DNA of 64,000 nucleotides from positions 864,001-928,000 of the forward strand of contig NZ_CP007202.1 in assembly GCF_000941055.1 (NCBI RefSeq), given 5' to 3'. The position numbers and the translations under genes are program-made. Source of the DNA: Siansivirga zeaxanthinifaciens CC-SAMT-1 (lineage in GTDB: Bacteria; Bacteroidota; Bacteroidia; Flavobacteriales; Flavobacteriaceae). Under the pieces are notes generated by a model, which saw only the letters and a list, made by a program, of their open reading frames with translations, did not search any database and was not told the origin of the DNA. Positions 9,057 to 20,564 of the stretch are shown one piece after another; within the stretch, counting starts at the first letter, position 1, and each line of letters starts with the position of its first letter.

Positions 9057-9133
9057 TAACATTAGGGTAACATTAACATTATAATTGTTTAATGTTTAAG
9101 TAACATTCAGTTTTTATTAATGCCTTTAATTTG
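9057..9133 (+). promoter_or_regulatory. Predicted PhoB box array and promoter for the gene at 9155
   Basis: Heptamers at an exact 11-bp period are TAACATT (9057), TAACATT (9068), a degenerate unit (9079), TAATGTT (9090) and TAACATT (9101). The last unit ends 22 nt before TTTG (9130-9133) of the -7 element TTTAATTTGC. The same spacing recurs at 9769, 12734 and 16111. Confidence 0.65.
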
Positions 9134-9154
9134 CTGTAAATTATAAAAGTACTA

Positions 9155-9541
9155 ATGAAACATTTAATTTACATATTTACACTACTAGTAACTTCTTTCG
9201 TATTTAGCCAAAATACAGGTATGGTTGTAGGGCAAATTATGGACAATGAATTAAATGACACACCACTAGTTCTTGCCAAAGCTGCCCTAAAAGATACAAA
9301 CGTAGCGGTAGATACCGATTTAACTGGTATGTTTGTTATAGAAAATTTAGAAGCTGGCGATTATACTTTAGTTTGCAGCTTTGTTGGTTACGAAACTAAA
9401 GAAATTAACATTCATGTAGATGCTAACGTACCTACCGAATTAAAATTAGCGCTCGAAGCCACTACAATTTCTTTAGCAGATTTAGCTTCGCTTACCGAAG
9501 TAGCTCAAAAAACAGACAAAACTACAGCTGTTTTAAATTAA
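9155..9541 (+). CDS. Stand-alone CarboxypepD_reg-like secreted protein
   Basis: The product is 128 residues: a signal peptide ending near FVFSQ, then one carboxypeptidase-regulatory-like beta-sandwich domain (VVGQIMDNELNDTPLVLAKA, DLTGMFVIENLEAGDYTLVC, FVGYETKEI), then a short tail. The domain closely resembles the N-terminal extension of the TonB receptor that starts 283 bp downstream, but the plug and barrel are absent. It is a complete gene with its own start, stop and Pho-box promoter, rather than a truncated receptor. It could be a periplasmic partner or competitor for a receptor N-terminal interaction. That function is an inference. Confidence 0.75.
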   Translation: MKHLIYIFTLLVTSFVFSQNTGMVVGQIMDNELNDTPLVLAKAALKDTNVAVDTDLTGMFVIENLEAGDYTLVCSFVGYETKEINIHVDANVPTELKLALEATTISLADLASLTEVAQKTDKTTAVLN

Positions 9542-9724
9542 TTTACACTTAAGCTTTTTTATAGTTTAGCATTCTCATTATTAAAATGACATTTTTGTAT
9601 TTGTAATTTTTATAATGGTACTAGCTATTTGTAATCTTTAGATTCTAAACCCTCTCTAATTTAATTTTATAATTAAACGTGTTTATTTTAATGTTAAATT
9701 ATTGTACTTTTCAACTACATTTCT

Positions 9725-9801
9725 TAACATTTAGATAACCCTATTGTTACTATTGTTTAACCTATTAGTAACATCCTATTCACATACTATTTCGTTCTTT
9801 G
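9725..9801 (+). promoter_or_regulatory. Predicted PhoB box array and promoter for the TonB receptor gene
   Basis: Five units occur at an exact 11-bp period: TAACATT (9725), TAACCCT (9736), TTACTAT (9747), TAACCTA (9758) and TAACATC (9769). The last unit ends 22 nt before TTTG (9798-9801) in GTTCTTTGC. This is the clearest array in the window. Confidence 0.7.
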
Positions 9802-9823
9802 CGCCAAGATAAAAACTAAAAGA

Positions 9824-12580
9824 ATGAAAAAAATCACCCTATTATTAATGCTGTTTACAGCAACAATAATGCAAGCACAAAACACTGGTTCTGTGGCTGG
9901 TAAATTAACCGATAAAGAATATAACGACGAGCCTTTAGCCTTTGCTAACGTATTAATTAAAGGCTCTACAAAAGGTACAACCTCTGACTTTGATGGTTTA
10001 TACAGTATTGAAAATTTAGCGCCAGGCGCATACACTTTAGTTATTAGTTTTGTTGGATACGAAACTCAAGAATTGCCTATTACAATAGTTGCAGGCAAAG
10101 TTACTACCGTAAATGTACCCATGGGTGCAAGTGCTGCTTCATTAGACGAAATTGTTATTACAACAACGACAAAACGTGAAAGTGAAACTGCCTTATTATT
10201 AGAACAGAAAAAAGCTATAGAAATAAAAACATCTATTGGTGCACAAGAACTAGACAAAAAAGCTGTATCCAATGCAGCTACTGCTACACTTAAAGTTGCA
10301 GGTGTAAACAAAAAAGAAGGCTCTAGTAAAATTTATGTAAGAGGTCTTGGTGACAGATATAACAGTACTACGCTTAATGGTTTGCCTTTACCTTCTAACG
10401 ACCCTACAAATAAAAATATAGATTTATCACTATTCGGAACAGACATTATAGAAAGTGTAGGTATCGGTAAAGCTTTCTCTTCATACATGTCTTCTGATGT
10501 TTCTGGAGCAAATATTGATATTGTAAGTAAAGAAATAACTGAAAAGTCTTTATTAAAAGTAGGTATTTCAACAGGTGCTAATACTCAAACAACTTTTAAA
10601 GATTTTAAAGAAATAGATGGTGCTAACTGGTTTGGTGTAAACTCTAATACCAAACATAAAATTAGAGACCTAAACGTTTATAGTTTTGACAATAGTTATT
10701 CACCTAATTCAGGAACTGCAAATCCAAATGTTGGTATATCATTAAATTATGGTAAAAGATTCACACTTTCTGATGAAAGTAACATTAGCTTATTTTTAGT
10801 TGGTACTTTTGGAAATGAGTATACATACCAAGAGGGTCGTTCTTCTAATATTATTGATGTTGGTAACGTAGGAACTATTTTCGACACGAAAACTTACAAT
10901 TACGAAGCTTCAAAAATGTTAATGGGTAACATCGCTTACAAAATAAACAATAACCATAAAATTAGTTTCAATCATTTGTTTGTTCACTCAAACAATCAAC
11001 AAATTGAAGATTTTACAGGAACAACAACAGATGTTGGTAGAGATAACGATGATAACCGATTAATAAATTTAGTTTTACAAACAGAAGTTCAAAACAGATT
11101 GTTTGTTAATCAATTATTATCTACTAATAACTTTGGAGCATCTACAGATGTTAACGCTGCTGTAAGTTATAATGCTATTTATAATGATGAGCCAGATAGA
11201 AGAAAAAACACGTTCATTATTGATAATGATTCAAACACTACTAGAATTTCACAAAACGCTGTAAGAGATAATAGTAGATTTTATGGTAATTTATTTGAAA
11301 CCAATATCGCAGGAAACTTAAATGTTGTTCGCTATTTAGGAAACAGAGACGAAAACAAAGGAAAATTAACTTTAGGATACAATGGAAGTATCGCCGATAG
11401 AAAATTTGATGGTATTTACTTCGACCACAACTTTAATAGTCCAACCACTACCTTTGTTGATGTTAATAATTTAGATCAAACATTTAACCAAACCAACTTA
11501 AATAACGGTGTTTTTGGTGTAGAAACTTCTAGAGGAAGAAACAGTAATGATGCTGAAACCTATTTACCTCAATTATACGATGCAGAAAAAACAGTACATG
11601 CTGTATATGGTGATGTTATTTACAAGTTTGGCGAAAAACTAACAGCCAATTTTGGATTAAGAGCAGAAGATATTAAAATGAATGTGTCATGGGATACAAA
11701 CATTAGTTTCCCTGGTTTTTCTAATAATAGTAACATCGATTTAAACAAGCAATATGTGCTTCCTTCATTAAATTTAAAGTATGTATTAAATGATAAAGTT
11801 AACTTTAGAGCTTCGAGTAGTGTAACGTATACATATCCACAATTTAAAGAAATTGCGCCTTTTACTTACGAGGGAATTAACTTTCAAGAAAGTGGTAATC
11901 CTGCTTTAGTTGCGTCAGATAACTACAACGCCGAGATTAAATTTGAATTATTCCCTAGCAAAAGTGAATTATTATCTGTGGGATTGTTTGGTAAATTAAT
12001 ACAAAACTCCATTAACCGTCTTGAAAGAAATTCGGCAATTGAAAGAGATTTTACCTTTGATAATTCTGGTGACGCTACTGTATTTGGGGCAGAAATTGAA
12101 ACCAAATGGGATATAATTAATAACGACATTAATGAAGACAAAACTAAAACGTTAAGCGTAGGCGCTAACGTTACATTAATGAAAACAGAGTTAAAATATA
12201 ATACCTCTAACACTTCATTTAATTACACTGGAAGCAGTTCTCAACTTGAAGGTGCATCACCATTTACTTTAAATACAGATATATCATATCAATTTAAAAA
12301 CGTTGGTAACTCTACCATAGCATCACTTGTATTTAATTACCAAAGTGATAAAGTATTTAGTATTGGAACTAACTTTCAAGAAAATATAATTGAAAAGGGT
12401 GTACCTATGGTAGACTTTATTTTTAGTCATCAATTCTCGAAAAAAATAGCTGTTAAGTTTAACGCTAAAAACATACTTAATCCAAGTTTTGAAACATACC
12501 GAGATATTCCAGAAAAGTTAACCATGAGCTTCTATAAAAAAGGAGCTACTTTTTCTGCAGGAATTAGTTTTAATTTATAG
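9824..12580 (+). CDS. TonB-dependent outer-membrane receptor, probably for a phosphate-containing ligand
   Basis: This is a 918-residue outer-membrane transporter powered by TonB. In order it has a signal peptide (ending near MQAQ), a CarboxypepD_reg-like domain (about 20-105, with FVGYETQEL), a linker, a plug domain (about 130-240, with IYVRGLGDRYNSTTLNGLPL) and a beta-barrel ending in an aromatic strand (GATFSAGISFNL). It lacks a SusD-type partner; instead a beta-helix lipoprotein gene follows. Its Pho-box promoter and the porin and PiT genes downstream point to a role in phosphate or organophosphate uptake. The substrate is inferred from context only. Confidence 0.85.
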   Translation: MKKITLLLMLFTATIMQAQNTGSVAGKLTDKEYNDEPLAFANVLIKGSTKGTTSDFDGLYSIENLAPGAYTLVISFVGYETQELPITIVAGKVTTVNVPMGASAASLDEIVITTTTKRESETALLLEQKKAIEIKTSIGAQELDKKAVSNAATATLKVAGVNKKEGSSKIYVRGLGDRYNSTTLNGLPLPSNDPTNKNIDLSLFGTDIIESVGIGKAFSSYMSSDVSGANIDIVSKEITEKSLLKVGISTGANTQTTFKDFKEIDGANWFGVNSNTKHKIRDLNVYSFDNSYSPNSGTANPNVGISLNYGKRFTLSDESNISLFLVGTFGNEYTYQEGRSSNIIDVGNVGTIFDTKTYNYEASKMLMGNIAYKINNNHKISFNHLFVHSNNQQIEDFTGTTTDVGRDNDDNRLINLVLQTEVQNRLFVNQLLSTNNFGASTDVNAAVSYNAIYNDEPDRRKNTFIIDNDSNTTRISQNAVRDNSRFYGNLFETNIAGNLNVVRYLGNRDENKGKLTLGYNGSIADRKFDGIYFDHNFNSPTTTFVDVNNLDQTFNQTNLNNGVFGVETSRGRNSNDAETYLPQLYDAEKTVHAVYGDVIYKFGEKLTANFGLRAEDIKMNVSWDTNISFPGFSNNSNIDLNKQYVLPSLNLKYVLNDKVNFRASSSVTYTYPQFKEIAPFTYEGINFQESGNPALVASDNYNAEIKFELFPSKSELLSVGLFGKLIQNSINRLERNSAIERDFTFDNSGDATVFGAEIETKWDIINNDINEDKTKTLSVGANVTLMKTELKYNTSNTSFNYTGSSSQLEGASPFTLNTDISYQFKNVGNSTIASLVFNYQSDKVFSIGTNFQENIIEKGVPMVDFIFSHQFSKKIAVKFNAKNILNPSFETYRDIPEKLTMSFYKKGATFSAGISFNL

Positions 12581-12582
12581 TA

Positions 12583-12610
12583 AAAAAAACCTCTTTGAGG
12601 GTTTTTTTAC
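12583..12610 (+). terminator. Terminator after the TonB receptor gene
   Basis: Directly after the stop codon, an A run and CCTC pair with GAGG and a run of seven T residues. This implies that the beta-helix lipoprotein gene downstream is transcribed separately from its own promoter. Confidence 0.75.
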
Positions 12611-12681
12611 TATAAATACCTTTCATGTAAACTCGATGGAAATAAAACATTACGGTTCGTATTAAAAATAACCTTAACCAA

Positions 12682-12766
12682 AAACATTAATTTAACATTA
12701 GCCAAAATTCTTAACGAAAAACTAATGTTCACATAAAACTATATTTAAGCACTTAGAGTTTCTTTG
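12682..12766 (+). promoter_or_regulatory. Predicted PhoB boxes and promoter for the beta-helix lipoprotein gene
   Basis: Two groups of 11-bp phased units are present: AAACATT (12682) with TAACATT (12693), and TAACGAA (12712), TAATGTT (12723) and TAAAACT (12734). The last ends 22 nt before TTTG (12763-12766) in GTTTCTTTGC. Units are weaker than in the receptor promoter. Confidence 0.55.
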
Positions 12767-12803
12767 CTTAAAATTCTAATAAATACAAAACCTAAAAAAT
12801 AAA

Positions 12804-13997
12804 ATGAAAACTTTAAAAAATTTATTCTTAATCGCAACTGTAATTTCTATTTTTTCTTGTTCAACTGTTGATGATAACAGAACTATCGATCCGGGACAAG
12901 GAGAAAACCCAATTACAGGTAATGAATTAAATGGCAATATAACTACAGACTCTAAATTATTAGCATCTGTAGAATATACAATTACCGGCTCTTTAACTGT
13001 TAAATCTGGTGCTACTTTAACCATTGAGCCTGGTACAGTTATAAAAGCTAGAAGCGGAAGAACCGATGTGTTTTTAGCAGTAGAAAGAGGTGCTAAATTA
13101 ATTGCTAAAGGTACGGCTGCAAAGCCAATCAGATTTACATCAGACGCTACATCTCCTAAAGCTGGAGATTGGGGAGGTATTGTAATTGCTGGTAAAGCAT
13201 CTTCTAACAAAGGAACAGATGTACAATCTGAAGTAGCGGGTTTACTTTACGGTGGTACTGTTAATGATGATGATTCTGGTGAATTAAGTTATATTATTGC
13301 AGAATATACTGGTGCTAAAATTAACGGAGAACAAGAATTTAACGGAATTTCTTTCTTTGGTGTTGGTAGTAAAACTATTGTTAATAATATAGTAGTTAGC
13401 GATGGTAACGATGATGGTGTTGAGTTTTTTGGTGGTACTGTTAATGTAAATAACGTATACTGTGCTAATATAGGTGATGACATGTTTGACTGGACAGAAG
13501 GTTACTCAGGAACTATAACAAACGCTTTTGGTGTTCGTAATGATGGTTTCGATACAGCTTCTAACGACCCAAGAGGACTTGAAGGCGATAGCAACAGTGC
13601 AGATATCACAGCTTTACCAATTTCTAAACCAACATTAAAAAATGTTACTATATTAAACCTTAATCCAGATGTAGCTCTTACAGGTGGTGCAGAGATTAGA
13701 AGAGGTACTGAGGCTACTATTGATAATATTTTATTCGCTGCTTACGGAACGGCATCTTTTGGAAACAGAATTGATACAGCAGACGGAAATGGTAACGGTA
13801 TTTTAACTATTACCAATGCTTTTGCTCAAGGGAATGTAGGTAACGATAAAATTGGTGGTGCTATTACTGGTACAGTAACTACCATAACAGATGGTATCAC
13901 AGTTCCTTCAAACAATACTATCACTACAAAAACAGGCGTAGGTGCAGACTTAAGTGCTTTTGCATGGGCTAACCGTACTTTTGTTGTAACAAAGTAG
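12804..13997 (+). CDS. Beta-helix-like lipoprotein of the phosphate locus
   Basis: The product is 397 residues with a lipoprotein leader (SIFSC, Cys19). The body has repeated short strands typical of a right-handed parallel beta-helix (GSLTVKSGATLTIEPGTVIK, GGIVIAGKAS, GISFFGVGSKTIVNNIVVS, DGVEFFGGTVNVNNVYC). Related proteins in Bacteroidota are often found beside TonB receptors and are sometimes mislabelled as transporters. It lies 223 bp after the receptor with its own terminator and Pho-box promoter. It may be the surface-exposed binding partner of the receptor in place of a SusD protein, which is an inference. Confidence 0.75.
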   Translation: MKTLKNLFLIATVISIFSCSTVDDNRTIDPGQGENPITGNELNGNITTDSKLLASVEYTITGSLTVKSGATLTIEPGTVIKARSGRTDVFLAVERGAKLIAKGTAAKPIRFTSDATSPKAGDWGGIVIAGKASSNKGTDVQSEVAGLLYGGTVNDDDSGELSYIIAEYTGAKINGEQEFNGISFFGVGSKTIVNNIVVSDGNDDGVEFFGGTVNVNNVYCANIGDDMFDWTEGYSGTITNAFGVRNDGFDTASNDPRGLEGDSNSADITALPISKPTLKNVTILNLNPDVALTGGAEIRRGTEATIDNILFAAYGTASFGNRIDTADGNGNGILTITNAFAQGNVGNDKIGGAITGTVTTITDGITVPSNNTITTKTGVGADLSAFAWANRTFVVTK

Positions 13998-14015
13998 TAT
14001 TCGATAAAAACAAAT

Positions 14016-14046
14016 AAAAAAGCCTCCCAAATTGGGAGGCTTTTTT
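14016..14046. terminator. Bidirectional terminator between convergent genes
   Basis: A 7-bp stem (GCCTCCC / GGGAGGC, 14022-14040) is flanked by an A run on the left and a T run on the right, so it can end transcription from the lipoprotein gene on the plus strand and the MORN-like gene on the minus strand. Confidence 0.85.
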
Positions 14047-14070
14047 ATTTCATTTCATGTCTAACTAACT

Positions 14071-14427
14071 TTAAATGCCCTGCTTGTTTTTAACTTCAGA
14101 TTCTTTTAAATTAGCTATAACATTTGCGTTATAATCTACTTCTTTTACAGTTTCTTTTGTGTAATAAAACCATTTGCCGACTTTTTTACCATTATCATAA
14201 TTTCCAGAAATCGTTTTTTCACCATCTGCAGAAAAGCTTAACCACTCACCTTGTAATTTACCATCTGTAGTGTAATAACCTGTTTGGCTTACAGCTCCAT
14301 TGTCATGATAATAAACAACCTCTATTAAATTGGTTTCTTTGTTAAACTTTAAATCTCTCTTTTGTTCTTTTTGAGCAAAAGATACCACAGTAATTAATAA
14401 GGCAAAAAATAAAACTAACTTCTTCAT
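14071..14427 (-). CDS. Secreted MORN-repeat (YwqK-like) protein
   Basis: The product is 118 residues with a signal peptide (MKKLVLFFALLITVVSFAQ). The mature part contains three MORN-variant repeats with the Y-x-x-G-x-x-x-G-x-W pattern (YYHDNGAVSQTGYY, YTTDGKLQGEWLSF, YDNGKKVGKWFYY). Such proteins are often named YwqK-family antitoxin components, but nothing here supports a toxin-antitoxin role. It is the only minus-strand gene inside the phosphate locus. A perfect -7 element TATATTTG lies at 14462-14455 on its strand, and an array of AACATT repeats at an 11-bp period lies immediately upstream, so it is probably part of the same regulon. Confidence 0.75.
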   Translation of the reverse strand: MKKLVLFFALLITVVSFAQKEQKRDLKFNKETNLIEVVYYHDNGAVSQTGYYTTDGKLQGEWLSFSADGEKTISGNYDNGKKVGKWFYYTKETVKEVDYNANVIANLKESEVKNKQGI

Positions 14428-14454
14428 AATTATGGGGTTTTTATATTATTATAT

Positions 14455-14522
14455 CAAATATATATAATTCATAACTTTAAAACAACATTCACATAACATT
14501 AAATTAACATTGAAAAAACATT
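14455..14522. promoter_or_regulatory. AACATT repeat array upstream of the MORN-like gene
   Basis: Units at 14472 (TAACTTT), 14483 (CAACATT), 14494 (TAACATT), 14505 (TAACATT) and 14516 (AAACATT) are exactly 11 bp apart. Relative to the minus-strand gene (-7 element TATATTTG at 14462-14455) they are inverted compared with the other arrays; relative to the plus strand they are in the usual orientation. Which transcript they control is open. Confidence 0.55.
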
Positions 14523-14569
14523 TAATTGAATATCAATATTATACATATTAATATTTAACATTGAAATAT

Positions 14570-14660
14570 TAATAATTACTTAATATTAGCATTACATTAA
14601 AATTACCTTAAACGTTGATATTTGTTATAGTCTTAAGACAAATTTAGTATTTCATATAAT
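14570..14660 (+). promoter_or_regulatory. Second phased box array and possible promoter
   Basis: Units TAATAAT (14570), TAATATT (14581), TTACATT (14592) and TTACCTT (14603) follow the 11-bp period. A weak -7-like element (TAGTATTT, about 14646) lies downstream. This could drive a short transcript that ends at the terminator at 14702-14730. Confidence 0.35.
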
Positions 14661-14732
14661 CTATTAGTTTTTGTCGACTACATTATTATGAATTTCTAGT
14701 GAGACTGCCTTGGCCAAGGCAGTCTTTTTTGT
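14655..14732 (+). ncRNA. Candidate phosphate-regulated small RNA
   Basis: Between a plus-strand box array and a strong terminator there is about 80 bp with no usable reading frame (the only ATG, near 14688, is followed by a stop after three codons). A stand-alone terminator inside an intergenic region, with the porin promoter located after it, suggests a short untranslated RNA. No homology to a known RNA family is claimed. Confidence 0.35.
14702..14731 (+). terminator. Strong orphan terminator upstream of the porin gene
   Basis: A perfect 24-bp palindrome (AGACTGCCTTGG at 14702-14713 with CCAAGGCAGTCT at 14714-14725) is followed by six T residues. No coding gene ends here on the plus strand, so it terminates either a small RNA or an upstream leader. 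Confidence 0.85.
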
Positions 14733-14741
14733 TAAGATATT

Positions 14742-14785
14742 TAACAATTAGGAAACATTAAGTTAACATTGAAGTTGGTTATTTG
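14742..14785 (+). promoter_or_regulatory. Predicted PhoB boxes and promoter for the porin gene
   Basis: TAACAAT (14742), AAACATT (14753) and TAACATT (14764) are 11 bp apart. TTTG (14782-14785) in GTTATTTGC lies 11 nt after the last clear unit, that is, in phase with one degenerate unit in between. The TTTG is also why the in-frame TTG at 14783 is not the translation start. Confidence 0.6.
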
Positions 14786-14809
14786 CAGCGACAAAAACTA
14801 AAAATGATA

Positions 14810-16012
14810 ATGAAAAACTTAAAAGCAATTTTAATTGTTATTCTTGTTGCTACACTACAAATTAATGCTCAAGACACTGCTCCTATTACAGAAAACACTA
14901 AAAAAGAGTGGTTCGAATCTTTTAAAATAAGAGGCTATGCCCAAGTGAGGTATAACGGTTTGTTTCAAACTAACCCAGACTTAGGCTGCGAACAATGTGA
15001 CAAATCTTGGGGTGGAGATAGTCAATTTTTCTTCAGACGTATTCGATTGGTTTTTTACGGACAAATTCATCCCAGAATATACTTCTACATTCAGCCCGAT
15101 TTTGCAAATGCAACTGGCGGAAATCAACAATTTGGACAAATTAGAGACGCCTACTTCGATGTAGGTTTAGATCCAAAAAACGAATTTCGTTTTAGAATTG
15201 GACAAAGTAAAGTGCCTTTTGGTTTTGAAAACATGCAATCTAGCCAAAACAGGTTGCCTTTAGACCGTAATGATGGTTTAAATAGTGCTGTGAAAAACGA
15301 ACGTGATTTAGGGATCTTTTTTTATTGGGCACCTGAAGAGATAAGAAAGCGCTTTTCTATGCTTACTAGAGAGGGCTATAAAGGAACTGGAGATTATGGT
15401 GTTTTTGGTTTGGGTGTTTATAATGGTCAAACTGCCAACGTCGCCGATTTGAATAATAAAAAGCATGTGGTAGCTCGATTAACTTATCCATTTAAAATGG
15501 GCTCCCAAATTTTTGAACCAGGAATTCAAGCATATACTGGTCAACATACTATAGATCCTGATGATATATCCGATGGCGTTCAAACAACTGATGACAATAC
15601 ATATATAGACCAACGCTTAGGGTTTACAGCTGTTTTATATCCTAAGCCATTTGGTTTTCAAGCTGAATACAATTTTGGTAGAGGTCCTGAATTTAATAAA
15701 GAAACCCAAGCCATAAGTGTTGAGAAATTACATGGTGGTTATCTTCTATTAAATGCAAAATGCTCAATTAAAAACCAGTTAATATATCCATTTACTCGAA
15801 TTCAATACTACAATGGTGGTAAAAAACATGAGTTAGATGCTAGAAGTTATGAAGTAAAAGAATTGGAATTAGGTGTGGAATGGCAACCTTATAAAAACTT
15901 TGAAATTGTGGCTATGTATACCTTTTCGGATAGAACTTATGAAGATTTTATTAATCAAGACAACAACCAAAAAGGAAGCTTGTTGCGATTACAATTTCAA
16001 GTGAACTTTTAA
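14810..16012 (+). CDS. OprP/OprO-like phosphate-selective porin
   Basis: This is a beta-barrel outer-membrane channel of the phosphate-selective porin O/P family. I start it at the ATG at 14810 (400 residues; an ATG two codons upstream at 14804 is also possible), which gives a clean signal peptide ending LQINAQ. Family features are the N-terminal strands KIRGYAQVRYNGLF, the FFFRRIRLVFYGQIHPRIYF segment, the FRIGQSKVPFGFEN motif and the terminal aromatic residue in LRLQFQVNF. A CEQC motif near residue 60 is unusual and could form a disulphide in a loop. It is followed by the PiT gene, so outer- and inner-membrane phosphate uptake are adjacent. Confidence 0.88.
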   Translation: MKNLKAILIVILVATLQINAQDTAPITENTKKEWFESFKIRGYAQVRYNGLFQTNPDLGCEQCDKSWGGDSQFFFRRIRLVFYGQIHPRIYFYIQPDFANATGGNQQFGQIRDAYFDVGLDPKNEFRFRIGQSKVPFGFENMQSSQNRLPLDRNDGLNSAVKNERDLGIFFYWAPEEIRKRFSMLTREGYKGTGDYGVFGLGVYNGQTANVADLNNKKHVVARLTYPFKMGSQIFEPGIQAYTGQHTIDPDDISDGVQTTDDNTYIDQRLGFTAVLYPKPFGFQAEYNFGRGPEFNKETQAISVEKLHGGYLLLNAKCSIKNQLIYPFTRIQYYNGGKKHELDARSYEVKELELGVEWQPYKNFEIVAMYTFSDRTYEDFINQDNNQKGSLLRLQFQVNF

Positions 16013-16099
16013 TTCATTTAAAGAATTTATTTCTACGAAGAATCAATATTCTCTTAAAAAATTATACTAAGTATTTACTGTTTGTGAAATTAAAAAATA

Positions 16100-16143
16100 T
16101 AACAATTACGTAACTTAGCATTCCAAAATACATTAGATATTTG
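16100..16143 (+). promoter_or_regulatory. Predicted PhoB boxes and promoter for the PiT gene
   Basis: TAACAAT (16100) and TAACTTA (16111) are 11 bp apart, and the second ends 22 nt before TTTG (16140-16143) in GATATTTGC, the same spacing as at the receptor promoter. Confidence 0.6.
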
Positions 16144-16160
16144 CAAACTTATTTTTTATT

Positions 16161-18461
16161 ATGGACAATATTTACTTATTAATGATAGTTGCCCTAGCGG
16201 TATTAGCCATTGCCGATTTAGTGGTGGGTGTTAGCAACGATGCAGTTAACTTTTTAAATTCTGCTATTGGATCTAAGGCTATTTCATTTAAAACAATTAT
16301 GATAGTTGCCAGTATTGGCGTTGCCTTAGGAGCTGTTTTTTCAAGTGGCATGATGGAGGTTGCAAGATCTGGAATTTTTAACCCTCATGAATTCATGTTT
16401 AATGAAATCATGATTATTTTCATGGCGGTAATGATAACAGATATTCTGTTATTAGACTTTTTTAACACCGTAGGAATGCCAACTTCTACTACCGTTTCTA
16501 TAGTTTTCGAATTATTAGGAGCTTCAGTAGCTATGGCACTTATTAAAATAGGGCATAATGGTGGAACTTTTTCTGATGTAGTAAACTACATAAATACATC
16601 TAAGGCTACCGAAATCATTTTTGGCATCTTATTATCAGTAGTTATTGCCTTTTCTGTGGGTGCAATGGTTCAATGGGTATCAAGGTTGTTATTATCATAT
16701 AACTATGAAAAACAGGCCAATTGGGTTGGTGCTATTTTTGGTGGTATTGCCATTACATCTATTACCTATTTTATTTTTATGAAGGGTATTGGGGGAACAT
16801 CCTATGCAAAAGAAAGTTATGATATTATAGGCGGCTCAACCATTAAAGAATTTTTAAGTAAGCAAGCACCATTAATTATTTTTGTAAGTTTAATTTTTTG
16901 GTCATTGTTATCTTATGCCTTAATCGCTTTTGCTAAACAAAGTATTTACAAAATTGTAATTATTATAGGAACCTTTGCCTTGGCATTAGCTTTCTCTGGT
17001 AACGATTTAGTTAACTTTATAGGTGTACCAATTGCTGGTTGGCAATCTTACACAGCTTGGGCTGGTTCTGGCGTATCCCCTGAAGCCTTTAGCATGGGTT
17101 TTCTTGCCGATAAAGTTCCAACTCCAACCTTTTTATTGGTTGTAGCAGGTTTTGTTATGGTCGCTACTTTATGGTTTTCTAAAAAAGCAAAAACAGTTAC
17201 CGAAACCGAAATTAACTTATCAAGAGAAGGAGATGGTAAAGAACGTTTTCAACCTAACTTTTTATCTCGTGGTTTTGTTAGATTAGCCGTTGGAGCTTCA
17301 GAAATGTTATCCTATATATTACCACAAACTTGGCAAGCTAAAATTGACAAACAGTTTGAAAAGCCTGTAATTAACTTAGTCAAATCTAAAACACATGAAT
17401 TACCAGCTTTTGATATGGTTCGTGCAGCAGTAAACCTAATGGTAGCTGCCATTCTTATATCGTTAGCAACCTCAATGAAATTGCCTTTATCTACTACTTA
17501 TGTAACATTTATGGTGGCTATGGGTTCCTCTTTGGCCGATCGTGCTTGGGGTGCAGAAAGTGCTGTTTATAGAGTTGCAGGGGTGTTAAATGTTATTGGT
17601 GGTTGGTTCTTTACTGCCATTATAGCCTTTGTTGCTGCCGCCATAATAGCTTATTTGTTAAACTGGAATGTTGCCGCTATGGTACCTGTTCTACTTTTAG
17701 TAGCTATTTTACTATTAGTTAGAAACTATATCGCACATAGAGAAAAATCGAAAGAAGCAAAAGCTGAAGATAGTTTAACTAAAGCTGAAAGCAGCTCTAT
17801 CCAGGGTGTTATAATTGAAAGCGCTAAAAATATTGCGAGTGTTATTAAACGCGGAAATAAAGTTTATACAAACTCCATTAATGGTTTAGCTAAACAAGAT
17901 TTACAACTATTAAAGAAGAACAAAAAGCAAATAGTTAAATTATCTAGTGAAGTAGATGAATTAAGAGATAACATCTTTTATTTTATTAAGAATTTAGATG
18001 ATTCAAGTGTTGGAGCAAGTAATTTTTACATTCATATTTTGAGTTATTTACAAGACATGACACAATCTTTAGAGTATATATCTAATGTAAGTTATAAGCA
18101 TGTTAACAATAATCATAAAAAATTAAAATTTAACCAAATAAAGGAGTTGAAAGAAGTAGACGAACGTTTTGAAGTATTATTTAATAATACGAGAAACGCT
18201 TTTGAAACTCAATCTTTCGAGGAGATTGGAATAATTTTAGGTAGAAAAACTGAAATAACCTCTTTAGTAACAAACAAAATACAGAAACAAGTAGAACGCA
18301 CCCGTACCGAAGAATCGAGTCCGAAAAACACCACGCTTTACTTTAGTATTTTATTAGAAACTAAAGATTTATTAAATGCCACTATGAATCTTTTAGAAGA
18401 ATATCATAACGCGCATGATGCTAAGGTAGCTCCTGCAAGAATTAATAAAGACCAAGAATAA
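16161..18461 (+). CDS. PiT-family inorganic phosphate transporter with fused PhoU-like domain
   Basis: The product is 766 residues. Residues 1-535 form a PiT permease that moves phosphate across the inner membrane using an ion gradient. Both family signature halves are visible (VGVSNDAVNFLNSAIGS near residue 25 and ALAFSGNDLVNFIGVPIAG near 275), with more than ten hydrophobic segments. Residues about 555-760 are soluble and helical, resembling the DUF47/PhoU-like phosphate-regulatory fold (SVIKRGNKVYTNSINGL, NIFYFIKNLDDSSV). In other bacteria this domain is often a separate gene next to pit. A Pho-box promoter precedes it and a terminator follows it. Confidence 0.9.
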   Translation: MDNIYLLMIVALAVLAIADLVVGVSNDAVNFLNSAIGSKAISFKTIMIVASIGVALGAVFSSGMMEVARSGIFNPHEFMFNEIMIIFMAVMITDILLLDFFNTVGMPTSTTVSIVFELLGASVAMALIKIGHNGGTFSDVVNYINTSKATEIIFGILLSVVIAFSVGAMVQWVSRLLLSYNYEKQANWVGAIFGGIAITSITYFIFMKGIGGTSYAKESYDIIGGSTIKEFLSKQAPLIIFVSLIFWSLLSYALIAFAKQSIYKIVIIIGTFALALAFSGNDLVNFIGVPIAGWQSYTAWAGSGVSPEAFSMGFLADKVPTPTFLLVVAGFVMVATLWFSKKAKTVTETEINLSREGDGKERFQPNFLSRGFVRLAVGASEMLSYILPQTWQAKIDKQFEKPVINLVKSKTHELPAFDMVRAAVNLMVAAILISLATSMKLPLSTTYVTFMVAMGSSLADRAWGAESAVYRVAGVLNVIGGWFFTAIIAFVAAAIIAYLLNWNVAAMVPVLLLVAILLLVRNYIAHREKSKEAKAEDSLTKAESSSIQGVIIESAKNIASVIKRGNKVYTNSINGLAKQDLQLLKKNKKQIVKLSSEVDELRDNIFYFIKNLDDSSVGASNFYIHILSYLQDMTQSLEYISNVSYKHVNNNHKKLKFNQIKELKEVDERFEVLFNNTRNAFETQSFEEIGIILGRKTEITSLVTNKIQKQVERTRTEESSPKNTTLYFSILLETKDLLNATMNLLEEYHNAHDAKVAPARINKDQE

Positions 18462-19229: not shown

Positions 19230-20564
19230 GACACTATCCCGTAAAGTGTGTAAGTTAAAAATCGAGGGTTTAACTTTTTTAAAGTTGAACCCTTTTTTCA
19301 AATATAGTTAAAAACTGGTTTAAAATAATGCCCCAGTTCCTAATAGGCATCGACCATTTTTTGGTAGCCTCTCTAAGGGCTAAAAAAGTGGACTTCATAA
19401 CAGCTTCATCTGTTGGGAATGAGAGCTTGTTTTTAGTGTATTTTCTGATTTTTCCATTAAGGTTTTCAATAAGGTTCGTAGTGTAAATGATTTTTCTAAT
19501 TTCTAAAGGAAATTCATAGAAAGCGGTAAGTTCTTCCCAGTTATCTCTCCAGCTTTTAATAGCGTAAGAGTACTTGTGTTCCCATTTCTGAGCAAAGTCT
19601 TCTAGGGCGGCTTTTGCTGCACTTTTGGTGGGTGCATCGTAGATGCTTTTCATGTCCTTTGTAAATTCTTTCTTGTCTTTCCAAACAACATACCGACAAG
19701 CATTACGAATCTGGTGTACCACGCAGATTTGGGTTTTAGATTCAGGAAAAACGTTTTTAATGGTGTCGGTAAAACCGTTAAGATTATCTGTGGCCGTGAT
19801 AAGCAAATCCTGAACGCCTCTGGCTTTCATATCGGTTAGTACACTCATCCAAAAGGCTGCCGATTCATTCTTCCCCAACCAAAGCCCTAAGACTTCCTTT
19901 TTACCATCTCTACGCAGTCCTACGGCGATGTACATGGTTTTGTTAATGACTTTGGAGTTCTCCCGAACCTTAAATACGATGCCATCCATCCAAGTAATTA
20001 AATATACGGGCTCCAGAGGTCTGTTTTGCCAAGCAACAATATCATTGGTAACTTTATCTGTGATACGTGATATGGTAGATGTGGATACATCAAAATCGTA
20101 AACTTCTCGGATTTGCTCTTCAATATCAGAATTACTCATACCCTTGGCATAAAGGCTGATAATGACGTTTTCTATGCCATCAACCATGTTAGTGCGTTTA
20201 GGAACCAGCATAGGGTTAAAAGAAGCGTCCCGGTCTCTGGGAACTTTAATATTAGTCTCTCCTAAAGCTGTTTTTATCTTTTTAGACCCATAGCCGTTAC
20301 GGGTATTGCTATTATCGGATTGCTGATGCTTCTCATAGTCTAAATGAGCATCAAGTTCCCCTTCTAGCATCTTTTCAATACCTCGCTTTTGAATGGATTT
20401 TAGAAAGGAGGTCAGTTCGTCTCCTGTTTTAAACTGTTTTAAAAAATCGTCGTTTAGAAAATCTTCTTTCTTCATAAGTGTGTAAATTTTAAAATTAAAC
20501 AAAAAAATTTCGAGGGTTGCAACCCTCGATATTTTTAACTTTACACACTTTGTGAGATACTACC
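19230..20564 (-). mobile_element. IS256-family insertion sequence, copy 2, with 8-bp target duplication
   Basis: The element is 1335 bp, like copy 1, with the same terminal inverted repeats. It is flanked by GCTCAATT on both sides (19222-19229 and 20565-20572), a target duplication of the size usual for IS256. It interrupts a coding sequence. Compared with copy 1, the right-end palindrome has a single A-to-T change (AATTTCGAGGG instead of AATATCGAGGG). Confidence 0.95.
19279..20502 (-). CDS. IS256-family transposase (copy 2)
   Basis: The 407-residue protein is identical to the transposase at 2453-3676, with the same three acidic catalytic positions (in [15 protein letters not shown] and [11 protein letters not shown]). 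The identity and the intact target duplication indicate a recent insertion. It is transcribed in the same direction as the gene it interrupts. A hairpin (about 19266-19292) overlaps its stop codon, which would limit read-through into the 3' half of the interrupted gene. Confidence 0.93.

Follow-up and report, generated by a model that had tools for sequence, protein, structure and literature searches.

Which regulator reads the repeated heptamers that stand before the phosphate genes of Siansivirga zeaxanthinifaciens CC-SAMT-1, and what do they control? The locus lies in a 64-kb window (the whole stretch analyzed, G000:C1:864001-928000) of a 3.30-Mb genome in one contig with 33% guanine-cytosine (GC) content. 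It contains, in order, genes for a stand-alone CarbopepD_reg domain protein, a TonB-dependent receptor, a lipoprotein, a minus-strand protein of 118 amino acids (aa), a candidate small RNA, a Porin_O_P family porin, and a PiT phosphate transporter. We describe the arrays of TAACATT-like units at these genes, their helical phase to the core promoter, the genes behind them across the family, and a conserved complementarity between the small RNA and the porin mRNA. From these observations we infer, with a probability of roughly 80%, that the units are Pho-box half-sites bound by PhoB, and that they drive uptake genes together with a small RNA that brakes the porin; PhoB binding, activation, transcription, and the sign of the RNA's effect are the interpretive part of this proposal.

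The initial annotation had reported five promoters with TAACATT-like heptamers every 11 bp, separated from TTTG by 22 nt in four cases and by 11 nt at the porin. On re-reading, all five arrays were found where they had been placed and the gaps agreed: counted from the last unit named there, TTTGC follows after 22 nt at positions 9130, 9798, 12763, and 16140, and after 11 nt at 14782. All arrays listed here lie on the plus strand and keep the 11-bp register. The array before the stand-alone domain gene (dom, 9155..9541) has TAAC units at 9057, 9068, 9090, and 9101 (span 9057..9107) ahead of TTTGC at 9130, and is seen in relatives too. That of the receptor gene (9824..12580) extends over six registers at 9725, 9736, 9747, 9758, 9769, and 9780 (9725..9786; register 9747 reads TTAC), with TTTGC at 9798. 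The porin gene (14810..16012) is preceded by TAACAAT, AAACATT, and TAACATT at 14742, 14753, and 14764 (14742..14770; TTTGC at 14782), and the PiT gene (16161..18461) by two units, TAACAAT and TAACTTA, at 16100 and 16111 (16100..16117; TTTGC at 16140). The weakest array is that of the lipoprotein gene (12804..13997), with phased units TAACGAA, TAATGTT, and TAAAACT at 12712, 12723, and 12734 (12712..12740; TTTGC at 12763); the last of these is barely box-like, and TAACATT at 12693, which matches the box better, lies out of phase.

Two arrays come in addition to these five. One, composed of TAATAAT, TAATATT, TTACATT, and TTACCTT (14570..14609), precedes the small RNA and ends 11 nt before the TTTG at 14621. 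The other, with five registers of 11-bp units (14472..14522), points away from the minus-strand 118-aa gene that it precedes; a loose four-unit pattern (≤2 mismatches, run without a control) finds it in the window and in all 14 loci that carry the 118-aa gene. This reverse-oriented array might repress the 118-aa gene, or might serve the small RNA side.

Across the 3.3-Mb genome, a triple TTAACAT pattern (≤3 mismatches) has five matches versus two for its reversed control, and four of the five represent three arrays inside 5.0 kb of the locus, the reverse-oriented one included. The fifth, the sole strong triple array outside the locus (L005, G000:C1:1779040-1779068, minus strand), stands before a gene that by eye is phosphoglycerate mutase-like. 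Elsewhere in this genome, exact two-unit matches occur once inside an open reading frame (ORF; L045) and once before moxR (L044, G000:C1:1008934-1008978, minus strand), where TAAC-11-TAAC lies 22 nt from TTTGC and moxR is followed by a gene judged by eye to be DUF58-like.

The arrangement recurs in relatives. In 27 related loci, obtained as matches in a scan of a contig collection with the TonB receptor as query, we surveyed 88 promoters belonging to five gene families. A TTTG together with a significant two-unit array was present in 78; the others were nine promoters without TTTG and one with p = 0.08. The best array lies at a multiple of 11 nt from TTTG in 68 of the 78, which are related sequences and so do not amount to 78 independent cases. 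By family, the in-phase promoters are 7 of 9 for dom, 25 of 26 for the receptor, 10 of 17 for the lipoprotein, 11 of 11 for an OprP-type porin, and 15 of 15 for PiT. A significant array was present at the receptor in all 26 scored relatives and at the lipoprotein in 17 of 26 (eight lacked TTTG and one had p = 0.08), and porin promoters that lie behind the small RNA were in phase in all 57 scored cases. The promoters combine tandem direct repeats of 11-bp period with a fixed helical phase to the core promoter, both traits of a PHO box.

A position matrix built from 16 window units was scored on 211 upstream regions of non-query genes in the 27 loci. The top ten regions, and 11 of the top 12, belong to the OprP-type porin (11 identities confirmed by tblastn), a gene found beside PiT in other genera and absent from the window locus, which has a different porin there. 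The initial annotation had proposed a matrix scan as a check on the box; for the held-out OprP-type porin, which ranks first, the check came out positive, and for PhoX promoters it came out mostly negative, as detailed below.

We then searched 395 Flavobacteriaceae genomes for the exact pattern TAAC-N7-TAAC-N25-TTTGC, with the reversed pattern as control, and obtained 861 matches versus 131 (6.6-fold) in 348 versus 106 genomes. The first 90 matches in listing order, which are not a random sample of the 861, were classified: 32 lie before PiT, 30 before moxR, 15 before the receptor (one of these, L118, doubtful at 31% identity), and one each before the lipoprotein and the OprP-type porin, with eight unassigned and three inside an ORF. 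PiT, receptor, lipoprotein, and porin genes account for 49 of the 90, a position upstream of phosphate-uptake genes that is characteristic of a PHO box. Because the control rate predicts ∼14 chance matches in 90, nearly all of the sampled excess falls at five gene kinds. A lack of enrichment at other phosphate genes had been named in advance as grounds for giving up the Pho-box idea; the enrichment is there, mostly before phosphate genes and moxR.

These counts largely exclude the idea that TAAC...TTTGC is a generic strong promoter form of AT-rich DNA holding no regulatory site. Both motifs would suit a genome of 33% GC, and TTTG is the usual -7 element in Bacteroidota, but the excess over the reversed pattern, the small share of sampled matches outside the five gene kinds (11 of 90), and arrays reaching six in-register units make it very improbable.

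As to the protein that would bind the arrays, searching the window genome with a PhoB model gave two strong full-length matches, at 219.5 bits (L069) and 147 bits (L070), and two more that span most of the model at 48 and 40 bits only. L069, which we take as PhoB, contains receiver and Trans_reg_C domains (PF00072, PF00486), with TIGR02154 and NF053854 as its top NCBIfam matches. In the phoB-phoR region (∼450.7–452.4 kb of G000:C1), phoB is followed by a gene for a PhoR-type kinase and then by one that by eye is glycosyltransferase-like, a gene order like that of the Flavobacterium johnsoniae phoBR operon in the accessible part of its description (PMC8115612). A PhoB orthologue, 59–82% identical to that of the window genome, is divergent from the receptor gene in nine of the 27 related loci (L020, L021, L025, L032, L034, L036, L037, L039, and L040), and the intergenic region between them has a significant array in eight of the nine, in other genera; L039 lay outside the scored set.

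Published work on phosphate control offers several points of comparison, each taken from the accessible part of the source. In F. johnsoniae, a receptor (pf13715) and a lipoprotein beside phoBR have fold-changes of 8.0 and 9.9, apparently log2, on phosphate depletion (PMC8115612). The window lipoprotein resembles that low-phosphate-induced lipoprotein, FII, by gene order alone, and the receptor–lipoprotein pair of the window genome, unlike that of F. johnsoniae, lies beside a porin and PiT and away from phoBR (PMC8115612). The accessible text of the same paper gives no binding motif, the word "motif" having 0 occurrences there (PMC8115612). In Bacteroides fragilis, PhoB binds the pstC promoter in an electrophoretic mobility shift assay (EMSA) and a putative phosphate permease is PhoB-dependent; the word "consensus" is absent from the accessible text, and the system uses pst, whose PstS family (PF12849) is unmatched in the window genome (PMC3547664).

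The PHO boxes of Escherichia coli PhoB, Bacillus subtilis PhoP, and Streptomyces PhoP are described, in the portion of a review available to us, as head-to-tail direct repeats with an 11-nt unit (PMC4415409), in agreement with the earlier remark that the period here equals that of PhoB repeats elsewhere; the unit itself differs, TAACATT versus CTGTCAT or GTTCACC. The window arrays are also unlike these boxes in being phased to a TTTGC -7 element, in extending to six units, and in belonging to a genome with no PstS match. The B. subtilis PhoP unit, TT(A/C/T)ACA, is closer to TAACATT.

The nearest motif in print is that of Riemerella anatipestifer PhoP, whose most conserved bases by DNA affinity purification sequencing (DAP-seq) are TTTAACA and which binds its own phoPR promoter, moxR, and a TonB receptor in EMSA (PMC9603813, accessible part). 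As in the window family, moxR and a receptor carry the pattern, and it is by motif, not by sequence, that we liken this PhoP to the window PhoB (PMC9603813). Its accessible text does not use "direct repeat", contains no 11-bp phasing that we saw, and compares the motif with that of ArcA (PMC9603813). Putative Pho boxes at plcP clusters were reported in 2015 (PMC4796936); besides these and the Riemerella TTTAACA, the literature searched, some of it accessible in part, gave no flavobacterial Pho box consensus. Neither the phase to the flavobacterial -7 element nor the phosphate gene set behind it was found in that literature. In architecture the arrays follow known PHO boxes, and for Riemerella PhoP a related motif, TTTAACA, had been published before. 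Together, the excess of matches before phosphate genes, the phoB–receptor arrays, the phosphate-induced F. johnsoniae pair, and the Riemerella motif, as far as its source is accessible, support the flavobacterial Pho box put forward in the initial annotation.

Between the minus-strand gene and the porin lies an element of ∼105 nt that is conserved in 19 loci, the window among them; it comprises a 5′ hairpin, an AT-rich stem, and a terminator. A terminator rule kept L015 and L123 out of this set. In the window this candidate small RNA, with predicted ends at 14628..14730 (plus strand), has the 5′ hairpin, a loop with TTAGTTTTTGTCG at 14664-14676, and an intrinsic terminator. The consensus fold comprises 24 pairs; the five that are doubly changed fall within the 5′ hairpin and the terminator. 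Rfam covariance models gave no match at E ≤ 1 within 14560-14740, and no earlier description was found in the literature searched. Rfam matches near 13909-14131 were rejected, as they scored below curated thresholds and fell on a terminator hairpin.

At E ≤ 0.001, a model of 18 sequences places the small RNA at 66 places in at least 65 of 149 genera, a lower bound because stricter filters were applied; the genomes with matches may include training genomes or close relatives. We examined 63 of the 66 places, the window among them, with the matrix trained on window units. The small RNA promoter has a significant array in 59 of the 63 loci, and in 54 of the 63 the best array is a multiple of 11 nt from TTTG.

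The leader element CGACAAAAACTAA (14789..14801, plus strand), with which the porin mRNA is predicted to begin, is perfectly complementary to the loop TTAGTTTTTGTCG. GACAAAAACTAA occurs eight times in the window genome, and only the porin leader and the reversed copy in the small RNA stand in such a context. The duplex is present in 18 of the 19 loci; shuffled leaders were as good in none of the trials at 11 loci, in 1–2 of 200 at six, and in 11 of 200 at one. In the larger set of 63 loci, the gene called next to the small RNA is a porin in 56. Pairing over 11–21 nt, with G-U allowed, occurs in 54 of them, and all except L219 (p = 0.18) reach p ≤ 0.05 versus shuffled leaders (53 of 54). Re-reading showed a porin with leader element at both exceptions (L237 and L252) and at L244. 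L240 and L257 have the leader element and no recognised porin, and L255 has neither.

At L216, L227, and L264 the small RNA is kept with PiT next to it, and neither a porin match nor the leader element intervenes. Loci in which the RNA is retained and no porin is present suggest that it may have other targets. Another genome carries two small RNA copies (G147:C1:1063473 and 1180742; L240 and L241), with the leader element behind both and one recognised porin.

Covariation between the partners points the same way. Among 57 anchored pairs, which include the mis-anchored L252 row, the cognates beat all 2000 re-pairings (mean 14.60 vs 13.99). The leader search required GACAAAAA(C), with ≤1 mismatch, after TTTG, so that mainly the flanks and the substitutions test the pairing freely. 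Two-sided, compensatory changes occur in the small RNA–leader pairs, for example at L268, L258, and L260, and both porin types have the leader element. Among the other window leaders, those of the receptor (15 of 300 shuffles) and the lipoprotein (10 of 300) are borderline, and those of dom and PiT are not small RNA targets by the shuffle comparison. The receptor leader (9798-9827) contains GATAAAAACTAA, a G-U variant of the small RNA target, in the window and in L018, L019, L028, and L041.

Could the complementarity belong to a single transcript? The element might be a leader whose transcription continues past its terminator into the porin gene, with the two complementary segments forming a cis attenuating hairpin; since a called porin follows it immediately in 56 of 63 loci, readthrough would put both partners on one RNA. 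We regard this as improbable, given that the intrinsic terminator covaries, that a phased promoter of its own separates the porin gene from the terminator (57 of 57 scored), and that L216, L227, and L264 have the RNA with neither porin match nor leader element. A separate RNA would have parallels in MicF and OmrA/B, the porin-repressing small RNAs of enterobacteria. Like them, the candidate has an intrinsic terminator and would pair with a porin mRNA at its 5′ end; unlike them, it adjoins its target, has PhoB-type boxes, is flavobacterial, and has no Rfam match.

Several results weigh against the reading of PhoB boxes with a porin-directed small RNA. A looser pattern (two TAAC units and TTTGC, ≤1 mismatch) in the window genome alone gave 27 matches versus 13 for the control. 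L069 falls below the curated PhoB cut-offs, at 220.1 vs 296.2 bits for TIGR02154 and 214 vs 270 for NF053854, so that we call it a PhoB orthologue only by best match and by gene order relative to F. johnsoniae phoBR. The region upstream of the window genome's own phoB has no array evident by eye; boxes at phoBR, which the initial annotation had named as a check, are seen in the eight phoB–receptor loci and are not evident here. The window genome has no PstS (PF12849) and no PhoX match. The expectation of boxes before phoX also failed for the most part in relatives: from 30 loci fetched, 4 of 26 scorable PhoX promoters reached p ≤ 0.04, a result that is largely negative and partly uninformative, because several PhoX genes by eye have coding sequence directly upstream. 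On the side of the small RNA, the covariation term is small (-0.38) and the central stem is without double changes.

The same weighing applies to moxR, a non-phosphate gene that has the two-unit form with a low matrix score. The presence of the form at the moxR operon means that the motif is not purely one of phosphate, and with two units only and low scores, moxR is counted as a member mainly on the Riemerella report. In the accessible part of that report, the PhoP motif is linked to 583 peaks and to aerotolerance and virulence, not to phosphate uptake (PMC9603813), and pstS is given as having risen in the phoPR mutant. The F. johnsoniae paper, as far as accessible, gives OprP as not induced (-1.3) (PMC8115612); this OprP, though, sits in the phoBR operon and is no more than a possible orthologue of the porins described here.

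Some of these points would fit binding by another OmpR-family regulator, namely L070, presumably RprY-like, or by some unrelated activator that recognizes direct repeats. After L069, only L070 matches the PhoB model strongly over its full length, moxR promoters have the two-unit form, and the window's phoB promoter lacks an evident array. We nevertheless consider this unlikely: the regulators that neighbor the receptor in nine loci are PhoB orthologues, to which L070 is only 33–36% identical, the genes matched other than moxR are mostly phosphate genes, and TTTAACA is preferred by the Riemerella PhoP, a putative counterpart of the window PhoB.

With PhoB as the binding protein, the locus would work as follows. 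Under phosphate starvation, the PhoR kinase would phosphorylate PhoB, which would bind in head-to-tail order along a single face of the helix, each 11-bp unit taking up one subunit. The occupied units would lie at a multiple of 11 bp from the TTTGC -7 element (11 or 22 bp, or 33 or 55 bp for units further upstream), so placed that the nearest subunit could contact RNA polymerase and replace a -33 element. PhoB would in this way switch on the outer-membrane receptor, the lipoprotein, the porin, PiT, and the small RNA, the array of the last being TAAT-type and probably weaker. The small RNA loop would pair at the very beginning of the short porin leader, most likely holding back translation of the porin, and the RNA would act as a feed-forward brake, which may come into play late because its boxes are weaker.

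The sign of this regulation admits a second version, in which the small RNA acts positively by shielding the porin mRNA 5′ end from decay. The pairing appears to cover the extreme 5′ end of the message, and with PhoB boxes on both genes the loop would in that case be a coherent one. The porin leader is just ∼20–25 nt, however, so that the duplex should cover the ribosome landing site as well; for this reason we judge repression of the porin the more likely, and protection a possibility of distinctly lower weight.

The protein-coding genes of the locus, all on the plus strand except that of the 118-aa protein, were identified as follows. The dom product (128 aa) is a stand-alone CarboxypepD_reg-like domain (PF13715, E = 9.6e-16), and the receptor (918 aa) joins a CarbopepD_reg domain to the TonB-dependent receptor domains (PF13715, PF07715, and PF00593). 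The secreted lipoprotein (397 aa) has no Pfam or NCBIfam match and is recognized by gene order in relatives. The secreted 118-aa protein (14071..14427, minus strand) has only sub-threshold matches, such as MORN_2, and occurs in 14 of the 27 related loci. Pfam agrees with the earlier naming of a porin O/P homologue (PF07396, E = 1.6e-29) and a PiT transporter of the PHO4 family (766 aa; PF01384, E = 8.1e-32). Just downstream, the ORF at 19279-20502 was judged by eye to encode a Mutator-type (IS256-like) transposase.

Mariniflexile gromovii is the closest among the 27 named loci (porin 96% and PiT 93% identical). A search with the window-type porin found a match in just 8 of 60 genomes, its own included, because most genera have a different porin at that place. 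In the window and in M. gromovii, the porin (14810-16012 of the window) occupies the site held by the distant OprP-type porin in most PiT-bearing relatives. The window porin, though distant from the OprP-type, has a matching kind of box, leader element, and small RNA, and it looks as if one porin gene had been exchanged for another while the promoter was conserved.

Bacteroidota play a major part in scavenging phosphate, both in soil and in the sea. Given a box and its phase rule, regulons could be predicted in hundreds of genomes and unknown receptors and lipoproteins assigned to phosphate, and a poorly mapped phosphate control circuit becomes testable. To our knowledge, few small RNA–target pairs are known in Bacteroidota, and the candidate RNA, being widely conserved, offers a concrete subject for work on RNA control in this phylum. 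On balance, though with less assurance than for the boxes themselves, we favor the view that the Flavobacteriaceae PhoB regulon on phased TAACATT boxes holds a previously undescribed small RNA, brake or shield, under the same switch as its target, and that the same box family drives moxR (Bat-type) and so may join phosphate sensing to envelope stress.

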